Source: Nitrospirota bacterium (GTDB lineage: Bacteria > Nitrospirota > Nitrospiria > Nitrospirales > UBA8639). Taken from it: a stretch of DNA of 32,213 nt. The notes below the pieces were generated by a model. The model ran no database searches. It was not told where the DNA came from and saw nothing but the letters and a program-made list of their open reading frames with translations. Positions 2,766 through 28,512 of this stretch are shown piece by piece; within the stretch, counting starts at the first letter, position 1, and every line of letters begins with the position of its first letter. The position numbers and the translations under genes were made by a program. The stretch lies in NCBI GenBank assembly GCA_027623995.1, contig JAQBUF010000040.1:1-32213 (forward strand), written 5' to 3'.

Positions 2766-2887
2766 CGTGCGCGACCCCAAGGGGGTCCCTGGACCAGCAC
2801 CCCGAATCAAGATGGCGAGAGAACTCGCTTTGCTCAAACAGCTCTCGCCGAGAGGTGGGATTCGGGGCACTGGCCCAGCCGCGCACG
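2766..2887. repeat. 122-bp nested palindromic element
   Basis: Three pairs of arms are nested in the correct order. CGTGCGCG (2766-2773) pairs with CGCGCACG (2880-2887). CCCCGAATC (2800-2808) pairs with GATTCGGGG (2859-2867). GGCGAGAG (2814-2821) pairs with CTCTCGCC (2842-2849). The stretch between the outer and middle arms also pairs imperfectly (CTGG/CCAG type). The whole could fold as one long hairpin in DNA or RNA and resembles a non-coding dispersed element or MITE. A long open frame crosses it into higB, but that is an artefact of the palindrome being free of stops. Confidence 0.75.
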
Positions 2888-2958
2888 AAGGCGTTAATTG
2901 CCAAGAAAAAAATTAACGAAATCGAAACGTGGATGGGGAAGCGTTACTTTTTGATGTT

Positions 2959-2991
2959 GGATTGGATACCGCAATTTGCGATCTCCAATCC
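2959..2991. repeat. nested hairpin upstream of higB
   Basis: GGATTGGA (2959-2966) pairs with TCCAATCC (2984-2991), and inside it CGCAA pairs with TTGCG around a single T. A CTTTTT run follows a few bases later, so it could insulate higBA from hemL read-through as a weak terminator. That role is inference. Confidence 0.5.
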
Positions 2992-3041
2992 ACAAGTTCT
3001 TTTTCCCCGAAGCCTTTGGGTCTCTTTATTAACCTCATTTA

Positions 3042-3068
3042 TTGACAGCTGTATATATGCGGTATACA
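3042..3068 (+). promoter_or_regulatory. higBA promoter with embedded inverted-repeat operator
   Basis: TTGACA at 3042-3047 is a perfect -35 box. TATACA at 3063-3068 is a good -10 box, with a short 15-bp spacer. The region between contains the inverted repeat TGTATA (3050-3055) and TATACA (3063-3068). That repeat covers the -10 box and is the kind of site the HigA antitoxin or HigBA complex binds for autorepression. Confidence 0.65.
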
Positions 3069-3076
3069 CTTGTCGT

Positions 3077-3364
3077 GTGATCGTCAATTTCCTTCATCGA
3101 GGGTTAAAAAGACTATTTCAGCGAGGTGAGAGTCGTGCTTTTCCAACTCATCATGTTCCGATACTTGAAGACATACTGTTCCGATTGGACACGGCTCAAG
3201 ACATCAAAGCCATGAATCTTCCTGCCTACCATTTGCATCAGCTGACAGGGAACTTTAAGGGATTTTGGAGTATGACAGTCGCTGCGAACTATCGGGTGAT
3301 TTTTAAGTTTAAAGACGGGCATGCAACCGATGTGGACTACCTCGATTACCACGGAAAAAAGTAA
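3077..3364 (+). CDS. higB: HigB-type mRNA interferase toxin (RelE superfamily)
   Basis: HigB toxins cut mRNA on the translating ribosome when not bound by HigA. The reading frame is open much further upstream, but homology to HigB begins only at the GTG at 3077 (IVNFLHRGLKRLF), giving 95 residues, the usual size. Family hallmarks are the helix LKRLFQRGESR, the segment MNLPAYHLHQLTG (residues 46-58), GFWSMTVAANYRVIFKF (71-87) and the C-terminal DYLDYH. R83 in NYRVIFKF and H92 are candidates for catalytic residues. There is no Shine-Dalgarno before this GTG, and it sits only about 8 bp after the -10 box, so the mRNA may be leaderless. higA follows 12 bp downstream in the toxin-first order typical of higBA. 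Confidence 0.88.
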   Translation: MIVNFLHRGLKRLFQRGESRAFPTHHVPILEDILFRLDTAQDIKAMNLPAYHLHQLTGNFKGFWSMTVAANYRVIFKFKDGHATDVDYLDYHGKK

Positions 3365-3376
3365 GGAGAAAATACT

Positions 3377-3676
3377 ATGGCCATGTTAAACCCACCTCAT
3401 CCAGGTCGGTCCCTCAAAAGGGATTGTATTGAGTATTTAGGATTGACCATTACCGAAGCGGCTGAACGTTTGGGAGTTACACGGCTAACCTTATCTAAAG
3501 TCGTGAATCAACGTTCAGGCATTTCTCCTGAACTCGCCATCCGGCTAGAAAAAATGGGATGGAGCACAGCAGATAGTTGGCTCGCGATGCAACAAGCCTA
3601 CGACCTCGCCCAAGCCAGAAAAAAATCCTCCCGAGTCAAAGTCCGCCCCTGCAAAACCCAACCAGCGTTGGCGTGA
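3377..3676 (+). CDS. higA: HigA-type antitoxin (XRE-family HTH)
   Basis: This 99-residue protein is the partner of the preceding toxin. The N terminus has the HigA signature [20 protein letters not shown]. It is followed by an XRE helix-turn-helix at about residues 27-60 ([25 protein letters not shown]) and the tail [31 protein letters not shown], the usual HigA ending. It neutralises HigB by direct binding and, with HigB, represses the shared promoter through the inverted repeat upstream of higB. An AAGGAG sequence precedes the ATG and the gap from higB is 12 bp, so the two are co-transcribed. The last 15 residues are basic and not part of the core family fold. Confidence 0.92.
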
Positions 3677-5298: not shown

Positions 5299-6164
5299 AC
5301 CACCATCGCATCCACGGCTTGGAGAATTTTTTCCCCTTGGGCCTGCAAATCATCCATATCGTCGGAATACAGATTCAACGCCTCGACAACCGGCAGGCTC
5401 TCTAATTCGGCAGCATCAAGCGAATTCAACCCTAAGAGGTTGGAGGCCATACAATCGGCTAAACACGTGACCATGGCTACAGGACTTGGATTCGGCGATT
5501 GGGTATAGTCTCGAAAATAGAGAATGGCCTCTTTGACTTGAGGGGGTAGTTTCCATTTTTCCACGACTGATGCTCCTACTGGCACATGATGGACCTCCAG
5601 CAACATTGAAAAACCATTCCATTCCAAGGTGACACCCAGGGACTGTTGAATCTCAAGCACAGCCTGAAGAACCACGGGTTTTCCAATAGTATGTAACAGT
5701 CCGCTGAGAAAGGCCCCCTCGACATTGTGACGCCCTTGCCGCGCAATTTCCTTGGCGTAAAGCCCCGAGGCTAAGGCGTGACGCCAGAGGCTAGTGATTT
5801 CTGGCTCATATCCTTGAACTCGAAACACGCCGCTTTCGATGGATACCGTCAGCGCGAGTTCACCCAACATCTTCATACCTAACCAGGAAACCGCTTGCTG
5901 CATCGAAACAATTGGAGACCGTGGGGCGTAGGCTGCCGAGTTGGCGATCTTTAAGACCTGACCGGCGATGGCCTGGTCTTGTTGAATCAACGTCGCTAAC
6001 TTCGCCATGTCGGCATCTGGATCGCTAGTTAAGTTGAGAACTTCAGTCGCGACTTGTGGAAGGAGGGGGAGCTTGAGCTCATCCTTGGTGATCCGATCGA
6101 CCAGGGCCGCATGAATGTGTTCAACCTGTTCTAACTCAACGGATGCAAGTGCTTCAGCCATCAA
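5295..6164 (-). CDS. HDOD domain protein
   Basis: This 289-residue protein is almost entirely an HDOD domain. The diagnostic start LPLLPQVATEVLNLTSDPDADMAKLATLIQ is at about residues 33-62. It is followed by the helix DQAIAGQVLKIANSAAY and the HD-like region SLWRHALASGLYAKEIARQ and GAFLSGLLHTIGKPVV. The metal-binding His-Asp pair of true HD phosphodiesterases is degenerate here (LLHTIG in place of LLHDIG), as expected for HDOD proteins, which are regulatory and not proven hydrolases. Members act in stress and c-di-GMP-linked signalling. Its stop overlaps the sthA start by 4 bp, which ties a signalling domain to a redox enzyme in one transcript. No membrane segment is seen. Confidence 0.88.
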   Translation of the reverse strand: MMAEALASVELEQVEHIHAALVDRITKDELKLPLLPQVATEVLNLTSDPDADMAKLATLIQQDQAIAGQVLKIANSAAYAPRSPIVSMQQAVSWLGMKMLGELALTVSIESGVFRVQGYEPEITSLWRHALASGLYAKEIARQGRHNVEGAFLSGLLHTIGKPVVLQAVLEIQQSLGVTLEWNGFSMLLEVHHVPVGASVVEKWKLPPQVKEAILYFRDYTQSPNPSPVAMVTCLADCMASNLLGLNSLDAAELESLPVVEALNLYSDDMDDLQAQGEKILQAVDAMVV

Positions 6165-26286: not shown

Positions 26287-26799
26287 ATGCTGCATCCAGC
26301 CACCGAACTTAGAAAAATCAACGACCAAGTCGGATATGGTATATTTGCGACTCAGTCAATCCCTCAGGGGACAATCACCTGGGCCCTGGATCCACTTGAT
26401 CAAATTTTTGACCTTACAAAAACAGAGCAACTTGATCACCAATGCCGTGAACTATTGACAAAATACACGTGGGTCAACACACATGGGCAGCGAATACTGT
26501 GTTGGGACTTCGGACGTTTCATGAACCACAACTGCGAAGCCAATTCTTACGGACTGGGTAATTGTCAATTCGAAATCGCCATACGTCACATCGCCGCAGG
26601 GGAAGAGCTCACGAGCGACTACGCGACCATAAATCTGGAGGAGCCCCTTGTATGCCAATGCGGATCCTCTCGCTGCCGTGGGATCATCACTCTGGAACAT
26701 TTAGAGGATATTGCGCCGAATTGTGATGCACTGATCCGGTCAGCATTCACGAGAATTCACGAAGTCCAGCAACCACTGTGGCATTGGATCGAAAGCTAA
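26287..26799 (+). CDS. SET-domain protein lysine methyltransferase
   Basis: This 170-residue protein is a minimal SET domain followed by a post-SET zinc motif. It has GYGIFATQSIPQGTITWALD (N-terminal SET strands), the AdoMet/lysine-channel motif RFMNHNCEANSYG, GEELTSDYATI with the catalytic-type Tyr, and the post-SET C-x-C-x4-C (CQCGSSRCRG). The family transfers methyl groups from AdoMet to lysine of a protein. SET proteins are eukaryote-typical but also found in diverse bacteria, where their targets are mostly unknown. The ATG at 26287 follows GAGAG by a good distance; the frame also opens at a TTG 12 codons earlier. It precedes the broken GNAT/hydrolase locus by 112 bp, and its GC content is lower than that locus. 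Confidence 0.88.
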   Translation: MLHPATELRKINDQVGYGIFATQSIPQGTITWALDPLDQIFDLTKTEQLDHQCRELLTKYTWVNTHGQRILCWDFGRFMNHNCEANSYGLGNCQFEIAIRHIAAGEELTSDYATINLEEPLVCQCGSSRCRGIITLEHLEDIAPNCDALIRSAFTRIHEVQQPLWHWIES

Positions 26800-26911
26800 A
26801 AGAACGAGATCGACCGCATGGTGCATCATCCCGACAGCATCCCGTCAGTCTTGACGCATCGGTGGCCGCCAGCGAAAGCCACCTGCACAAGCAAAGGAAT
26901 GGAGACGTAAT

Positions 26912-28512
26912 ATGGCAGGCGGCCTATCCCCAAGTGAAGTGGCGTCCCGTGCAGCCAGCGTCAAGGTACGCCGTGCCCGCCTCGACGATATTCCGGCTCT
27001 GTACGCGTGCCAGGGAGGCGGCGTATGGTGATTACGGACCAGGAGGGCTCTGTAGCGAGCGCCTACTCAAGATGCAAATCGAGGCATTTCCCGAAGGCCA
27101 GCTCATCGCGACCATCGGAAAGCAGGTGGTGGGGTATGCGATGGCCCTGATCGTCCATCTCGATGACGATTCGCCGTGGTACTCTTACGCCGAGATCACT
27201 GGAGGCGGCACTTTTAGCACCCACGACCCCGCCGGCGATGATCTCTACGGCGCGGATATGGCCGTGCATCCTGATTTTCGTCGCCTCGGGATAGCGGCGA
27301 AGCTCTATAGAAGGCAGAATGAACGTCCTCAAGCGCTTTAACCTACGCCGAATGGTTGCCGGAGGCCGTATTCCAGGATACCGCGAGCACGCCGGTCGTT
27401 TGTCCGCGGAACAATACGTGGAAAAAGTGTGTCGGGGAGAGCTTAAAGATCCCGCCCTCAGTGCCCACCTCAAAGCTGGGTATCAGATCAAGGGCGTCCA
27501 TATGAGCTACCTCCGCGACGAGCAGAGCTTGAATTACGCCACGTTTCTTGAACTCAAGAATTCCGCATATCGCCAGCCTAAACGCACCACCGCCGCATCG
27601 CCCATGAAAAGACCCGTGCGAAAGATCCGGGTCTGCGCAGCCCAGTACGAACTGCGCTCGGTCAAGAGCTGGGAAGCATTTGAACACCAGGTGGATTTCT
27701 TTGTCGCCACAGCGGAGCAATACCACTGTCACTACCTCCTCTTTCCGGAATTATTCACCGTCCAGCTTTTCAGCATGCTCGACCCTTCAATGAAACCAGT
27801 GGACGCGATTGTCCAACTGGCCGGCATGGTGGACCGCTACCGAGAGATGTTTATCGCCAAAGCCAAGCGCTCCGGCTTGTTCATCATCGGGGGATCCCAC
27901 CCCGTCCGAGTTGGAAACGGCATCCGCAATGTGGCTCATTTGTTTGATCCCAATGGCAACGTCCACACCCAAGATAAACTGCACGTCACGCCGAACGAGC
28001 GGCAGGAGTATGGGATCGAGCCAGCAGGGGAAGGACTCAAAGTATTCGAAACCAGCCATGCCCGGATTGCCATCCAGGTCTGCTACGATATCGAGTTCCC
28101 CGAGCCTTCCCGCTTGCTGACCCTCGCGGGAGCGGAAGTGATATTTGTGCCGTTTAGCACCGATGAACGAAAAGCCTACTTGCGGGTACGATACACCGCC
28201 CAAGCCCGCGCAGTGGAAAACGTGATCTATACCGTCCTCTCCGGCAACGTCGGCAACTTACCCCAGGTCGATAACTTCCTCATCAACTATGGCCAAGCCG
28301 CCATTTGTACGCCAAGCGATTTTGCCTTTCCCACCGATGGCATTGCCGGCACCGCAGACTTCAACAGTGAAACCGTCGTCATCAGCGACCTCGATCTGGT
28401 CGTGCTTCACGAAACACGAGAGATGGGAAGCGTACGTCCCTTACGAGATCGACGGCTGGATCTCTATAGTCTCGAAGCCAAGAAGCCAGTGGAAATTATT
28501 CGGGTTTCGTAA
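26912..28512 (+). pseudogene. GNAT / carbon-nitrogen hydrolase fusion, split by two +1 frameshifts
   Basis: Intact relatives are single proteins of about 520-530 residues with an N-terminal GNAT acetyltransferase and a C-terminal nitrilase-superfamily amidase. Here three frames carry the pieces. Frame 1 starts at ATG 26912 (GGAG upstream) and reads VKVRRARLDDIPALYACQ, then runs to a stop at 27029-27031. Dropping one G of the GGG at 27013-27015 continues as CQEAAYGDYG in frame 2, which holds GNAT motif A (DMAVHPDFRRLGIAAKLY). Dropping one A near 27307 continues into frame 3 (EGRMNVLKRFNLRRMVAGG), which reads to 28512. The hydrolase triad is intact: in frame-3 numbering from ATG 27319, E144 (LLFPELF), K220 (DKLHV) and C255 (QVCYDIEFPE). 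The hydrolase part could be translated on its own from that ATG, which has AGAAGG before it. Sequencing error, real pseudogenisation or programmed shifting are all possible. The GC content looks higher than in neighbours. Confidence 0.85.

Follow-up and report, generated by a model that had tools for sequence, protein, structure and literature searches.

Positions 26,912 to 28,512 of a contig from a Nitrospirota bacterium encode a fusion of a GNAT acetyltransferase and a carbon-nitrogen hydrolase that is spread over three successive reading frames, and we asked whether this gene has been lost, is read through by recoding, or only appears broken because of an error in the sequence. The stretch of DNA analysed (the window; 32,213 nucleotides) is the entire contig, and the genome from which it comes is 3.13 Mb in 110 contigs and 99.7% complete. 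The host is a nitrifier-type bacterium from the environment, and its named relatives are Nitrospirales metagenome bins. The window also carries, at 2855-3676, a HigB-like toxin gene (PF05015); behind it, where an antitoxin would be expected, lies an ORF of 99 codons.

A conserved fusion divided by two extra bases

The first part of the gene lies in frame 2, from ATG 26912 to the stop TGA 27029 (27029-27031). Frame 0, open from after 26724 up to TAA 27339 (27339-27341), holds the middle part, and codons 133 to the end are encoded in frame 1, which includes the hydrolase part and is open from after 27292 up to TAA 28510. The features of the locus are as follows.

26901-26904, plus strand: GGAG, Shine-Dalgarno-like, 7 nt 5' of the fusion ATG (read directly in the sequence)
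26912-27013, plus strand: GNAT part 1, frame 2, codons 1-34, followed by non-homologous sequence up to the TGA (frames, DNA alignment, family alignment)
27013-27015, plus strand: first extra base, in GGG, placed at 27013 by alignment; relatives are one base shorter (DNA alignment)
27015-27308, plus strand: GNAT part 2 in frame 0 (codons 35-132), containing RRLGIA, the acetyl-CoA-binding motif (Pfam Acetyltransf_1, E 1.9e-06)
27307-27309, plus strand: second extra base, placed at 27309 by alignment (DNA alignment)
27310-27624, plus strand: C-terminal portion of the GNAT domain, plus linker, in frame 1 (family alignment)
27319-28512, plus strand: ORF with a complete carbon-nitrogen hydrolase domain (Pfam CN_hydrolase, E 1.8e-25, ORF residues 105-367)
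27748-27750, plus strand: codon for the catalytic Glu (conserved in 42 of the 42 homologs that have a residue at this position)
27976-27978, plus strand: codon for the catalytic Lys (42 of 42)
28081-28083, plus strand: codon for the catalytic Cys (42 of 42)

The frame-broken fusion is not a chance arrangement, as the middle frame has a Pfam match to Acetyltransf_1 and the final frame one to CN_hydrolase. The protein joined from the three frames aligns without a break to the family and scores like an intact relative. A preliminary description of the locus had proposed that two one-base insertions divide a conserved fusion into three frames while leaving the hydrolase active-site residues E, K and C unharmed, and both proposals agree with the alignments, the frames and the Pfam matches. 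The extra bases were placed by DNA alignment with six Nitrospirales relatives, in which the sole further coding indel relative to most of them is in frame (28022-28024). The first is indeed a G within 27013-27015, where all relatives compared have one base fewer; for the second, described as an A near 27307, one extra base is confirmed, although its position is fixed only to the interval given above.

The fusion family itself is already known, and corresponds to the NCBI product name bifunctional GNAT family N-acetyltransferase/carbon-nitrogen hydrolase family protein, a fusion of PF00583 and PF00795. The window copy has the CN_hydrolase domain with its E-K-C triad and the N-terminal GNAT domain with its acetyl-CoA motif (from Acetyltransf_1 in both the middle frame and the joined protein, and from the family alignment), and it resembles the family in the order of its domains, in homology over the full length of the joined pieces and in a conserved GGRIPGY region. 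It differs in that the two domains do not share one frame, as they do in close relatives, and it is best described as a disrupted family member. A similar combination of acetyltransferase and nitrilase characterizes branch 12 of the nitrilase superfamily (nitrilases with an N-terminal RimI-like domain); the window copy differs from this in being broken, and the likeness is one of domain build. No functional study of a GNAT-hydrolase fusion was found in the literature searched.

The gene is intact in close relatives

In five close relatives from the same order, whose hydrolase parts are 91-93% identical to that of the window copy, the locus is whole on one contig. The fusion is a single open frame of 547-568 codons in G001, of the same genus, and in G009, G038, G040 and G043, of the same family, and in G046 it is intact up to the end of its contig. 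Most of the more distant members also have one open frame; in all, 50 of the 64 loci fetched carry it at full length, and among the others several are truncated by a contig end or miss just the N-terminal portion of the match. The preliminary description had named a two-gene form in relatives as evidence against its reading, and no such form is present among the close relatives.

Two-gene forms do occur in more distant bacteria, broken near the domain border at codons 209-235. In another family of the order (L010, L011 and L012), the hydrolase and GNAT genes are separate neighbours with the hydrolase first, and the counterpart of 27310-27624 sits in the separate GNAT gene in these other Nitrospirales. 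In two Paenibacillus loci (L098 and L099, 5600-7150), the GNAT and hydrolase parts occupy two separate frames that overlap close to the domain border, which is less clear in L099 as the aligned parts overlap there. A clean split at the domain border was rejected for the window copy, which is broken at codons 34 and 132; because these breaks are inside the GNAT domain, the arrangement differs from the distant two-gene forms, and a neat division into two working genes is unlikely. A gammaproteobacterial fusion copy (L065, 5762-7080) is also in two frames, with about 75 residues missing.

Selection on the three pieces

The hydrolase part has a dN/dS of 0.03-0.04 against relatives, equal to the value among the relatives themselves, and the middle GNAT part has 0.03-0.11 against relatives, compared with 0.02-0.06 among them. 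Thirteen residues are unique to the window copy at sites that are invariant in the five relatives compared, and all 13 are present in distant homologs at the same column, as against 31% for random single-base changes in the middle part. Since every unique change is to a residue that homologs allow, the frames were under selection, and translated, until recently; with selection acting for most of the branch, the extra bases are either recent or artefactual. The unique changes are concentrated in the middle GNAT part (7 of 98 codons, against 6 of 399 downstream; Fisher p = 0.006), a slight excess that hints at constraint on the acetyltransferase weakening first.

The adjacent SET-domain gene

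A second gene lies immediately upstream of the fusion.

26287-26799, plus strand: SET-domain gene, ending at a premature TAA (26797-26799) (Pfam SET, E 8.7e-12)
26800-26910, plus strand: former C-terminal tail of the SET gene, readable in frame past the stop (KNEIDRMVHHPDSIPSVLTHRW...) (aligns with the SET tails of relatives)

At the site of the premature TAA, five relatives have a sense codon, with about 35 further codons following, and the lost tail bears a PSVL/PSAM-xHR motif that is seen in the tails of the six relatives examined. The SET gene adjoins the fusion in five Nitrospirales relatives and also in L067 and L045, two bins carrying the labels Myxococcales and Sandaracinaceae, and this recurring pairing suggests that the two may form a functional module. 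The stop is an independent lesion of another type, and a substitution beside two insertions speaks for decay.

Probable recent loss of the fusion

We think it more likely than not that the gene has recently been lost through two single-base insertions in the acetyltransferase domain, and somewhat more so if loss is taken to include the variant in which the hydrolase is retained alone. The ancestral state would have been a normal fusion under purifying selection until recently, inactivated in the host lineage by these insertions. Ribosomes starting at 26912 would stop at TGA 27029 and make no acetyltransferase, while the hydrolase domain would be left as a single open frame, perhaps translated weakly, starting at the internal ATG 27319, as a lone hydrolase still bearing half an acetyltransferase. 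With the SET tail presumably lost by a nonsense change, decay seems to affect the entire unit of two genes. The lesions are absent from orthologs, as expected of a pseudogene.

A frameshift scan of 234 genes of the host genome against G001 (76,042 aligned residues, about 227 kb) revealed one other clear frameshift, near a C-terminal end (L117, 16742), and one clear stop within a gene body, flanked to either side by good homology (L116, TAA at 5883); less certain cases were discounted, many apparent in-frame stops being antisense ORFs or alignment ends. Two independent errors in this 1.6 kb gene are then improbable, with a chance of about 2e-5 that rises to about 7e-4 if the rate is set at its upper bound. 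This argument is weakened if such cases are searched for genome-wide, with 0.03 to 1 genes of this kind expected over 3,000, or if local coverage is poor.

Several observations fit less readily with loss. Changes of the sort that neutral drift produces are absent, and if the second insertion came later, under neutrality, the chance of finding no atypical residue is about 0.13-0.31, a rough value that depends on assumed mutation ratios. The SET stop could be tolerated, or could itself be an error. Most Salmonella pseudogenes carry a single lesion, and insertions account for only 17% of such cases (PMC2916853), which also counts against loss.

Possible sequencing or assembly error

The same lack of drift, with all three pieces fully constrained, is what would be expected if the organism's fusion is intact and the extra bases are artefacts, arising for example from low local coverage or a mixture of strains in the bin. 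This is a serious alternative, to which we give a little over one chance in three. The frameshift is unique to the host genome among close relatives, which have the gene intact, and one survey attributed most BLAST-validated singleton frameshifts to sequencing error (PMC3711429). Nearly all of the other genes compared are intact, however, and the extra bases lie outside long homopolymers. The nonsense change in the neighbouring SET gene also counts against error. The contigs, the largest seen being 67 kb, look like those of a short-read assembly. Indel errors are rare in assemblies of this type. A genome-wide long-read error was rejected, since the compared genes are intact. Where the preliminary description offered recent loss, long-read error or, less likely, recoding, loss and error both stand as general explanations, with little to favour the long-read form of error.

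A possible retained hydrolase

Loss of the acetyltransferase could also be a functional split, in which the hydrolase is kept and translated from ATG 27319. The domain is complete with a dN/dS of about 0.03, AGAAGG (27309-27314) lies just 5' of this ATG, the GNAT part carries more than its share of the unique changes, and separate hydrolase genes of the family exist in the same order (L010-L012). We nonetheless regard a split as improbable, as the breaks fall within the GNAT domain and the remnant would bear about 100 residues of half a GNAT, and the low dN/dS mostly dates from before the break. At most, a lone hydrolase could survive.

Programmed frameshifting, a very improbable reading

Programmed +1 frameshifting at two sites to give the full fusion is very improbable, and we find no support at either site for this option of the preliminary description. 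A GGAGG lies 10 nt 5' of the TGA closing the first frame, the second frame closes with CTT TAA C, and the genome's prfB (L222, 1481) uses +1 shifting at a canonical signal (GGAGG CGT CTT TGA C); the need for a +1 shift and the GGAGG before the site-1 TGA are points of likeness. However, the conserved residues change frame at 27013-27015 and 27307-27309 rather than at the stops, and family conservation is maintained up to roughly two codons from either extra base, so that the change of frame falls at places lacking a stop or a slippery signal. Tyr38 and Arg135 are encoded in the new frame, ahead of the stops. Shifting at the TGA would instead give Val at position 38, where 40 of 40 homologs have Y or F, and shifting at the TAA would replace Arg135, which is invariant (42 of 42). 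Shifting at the stops themselves (TGG TGA T and CTT TAA C) was therefore rejected.

The sites also differ from prfB in other respects. At site 1 there is no slippery CTTT before the TGA, the P-site codon TGG allows no +1 re-pairing and the spacing is wrong (compare PMC12421855), and at site 2 the CTT TAA C is a by-product of conserved Arg-Phe-Asn codons and there is no Shine-Dalgarno-like sequence. A prfB-type signal (Shine-Dalgarno-like sequence, 3 nt, CTTT run, TGA C) is absent near 27013 and 27309, and elsewhere in the window there are three weak matches, with 2.86 expected by chance. The GGAGG near the TGA is not special, as the window has 87 GGAGG on both strands, and 10 of these have a TGA 3-11 nt away. 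As a shift-prone pair, the adjacent codons AGA and AGG (27309-27314) were rejected because neither re-pairs one base on; AGG is rare, accounting for 7 of 262 Arg codons in nine window genes. The frame change is not conserved among homologs, and is seen in no close relative. What would be needed is two successive +1 recodings of an undescribed type, confined to the host lineage and acting without slippage signals at stops, for which we see hardly any likelihood; were it so, the full fusion would still be produced there.

Implications

The frame-broken fusion matters chiefly for annotation, and the hydrolase should be annotated as a fragment of a frameshifted fusion rather than as a native stand-alone enzyme. 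Should the loss that we favour be real, the unit of SET gene and GNAT-hydrolase fusion would be dispensable in the host lineage.
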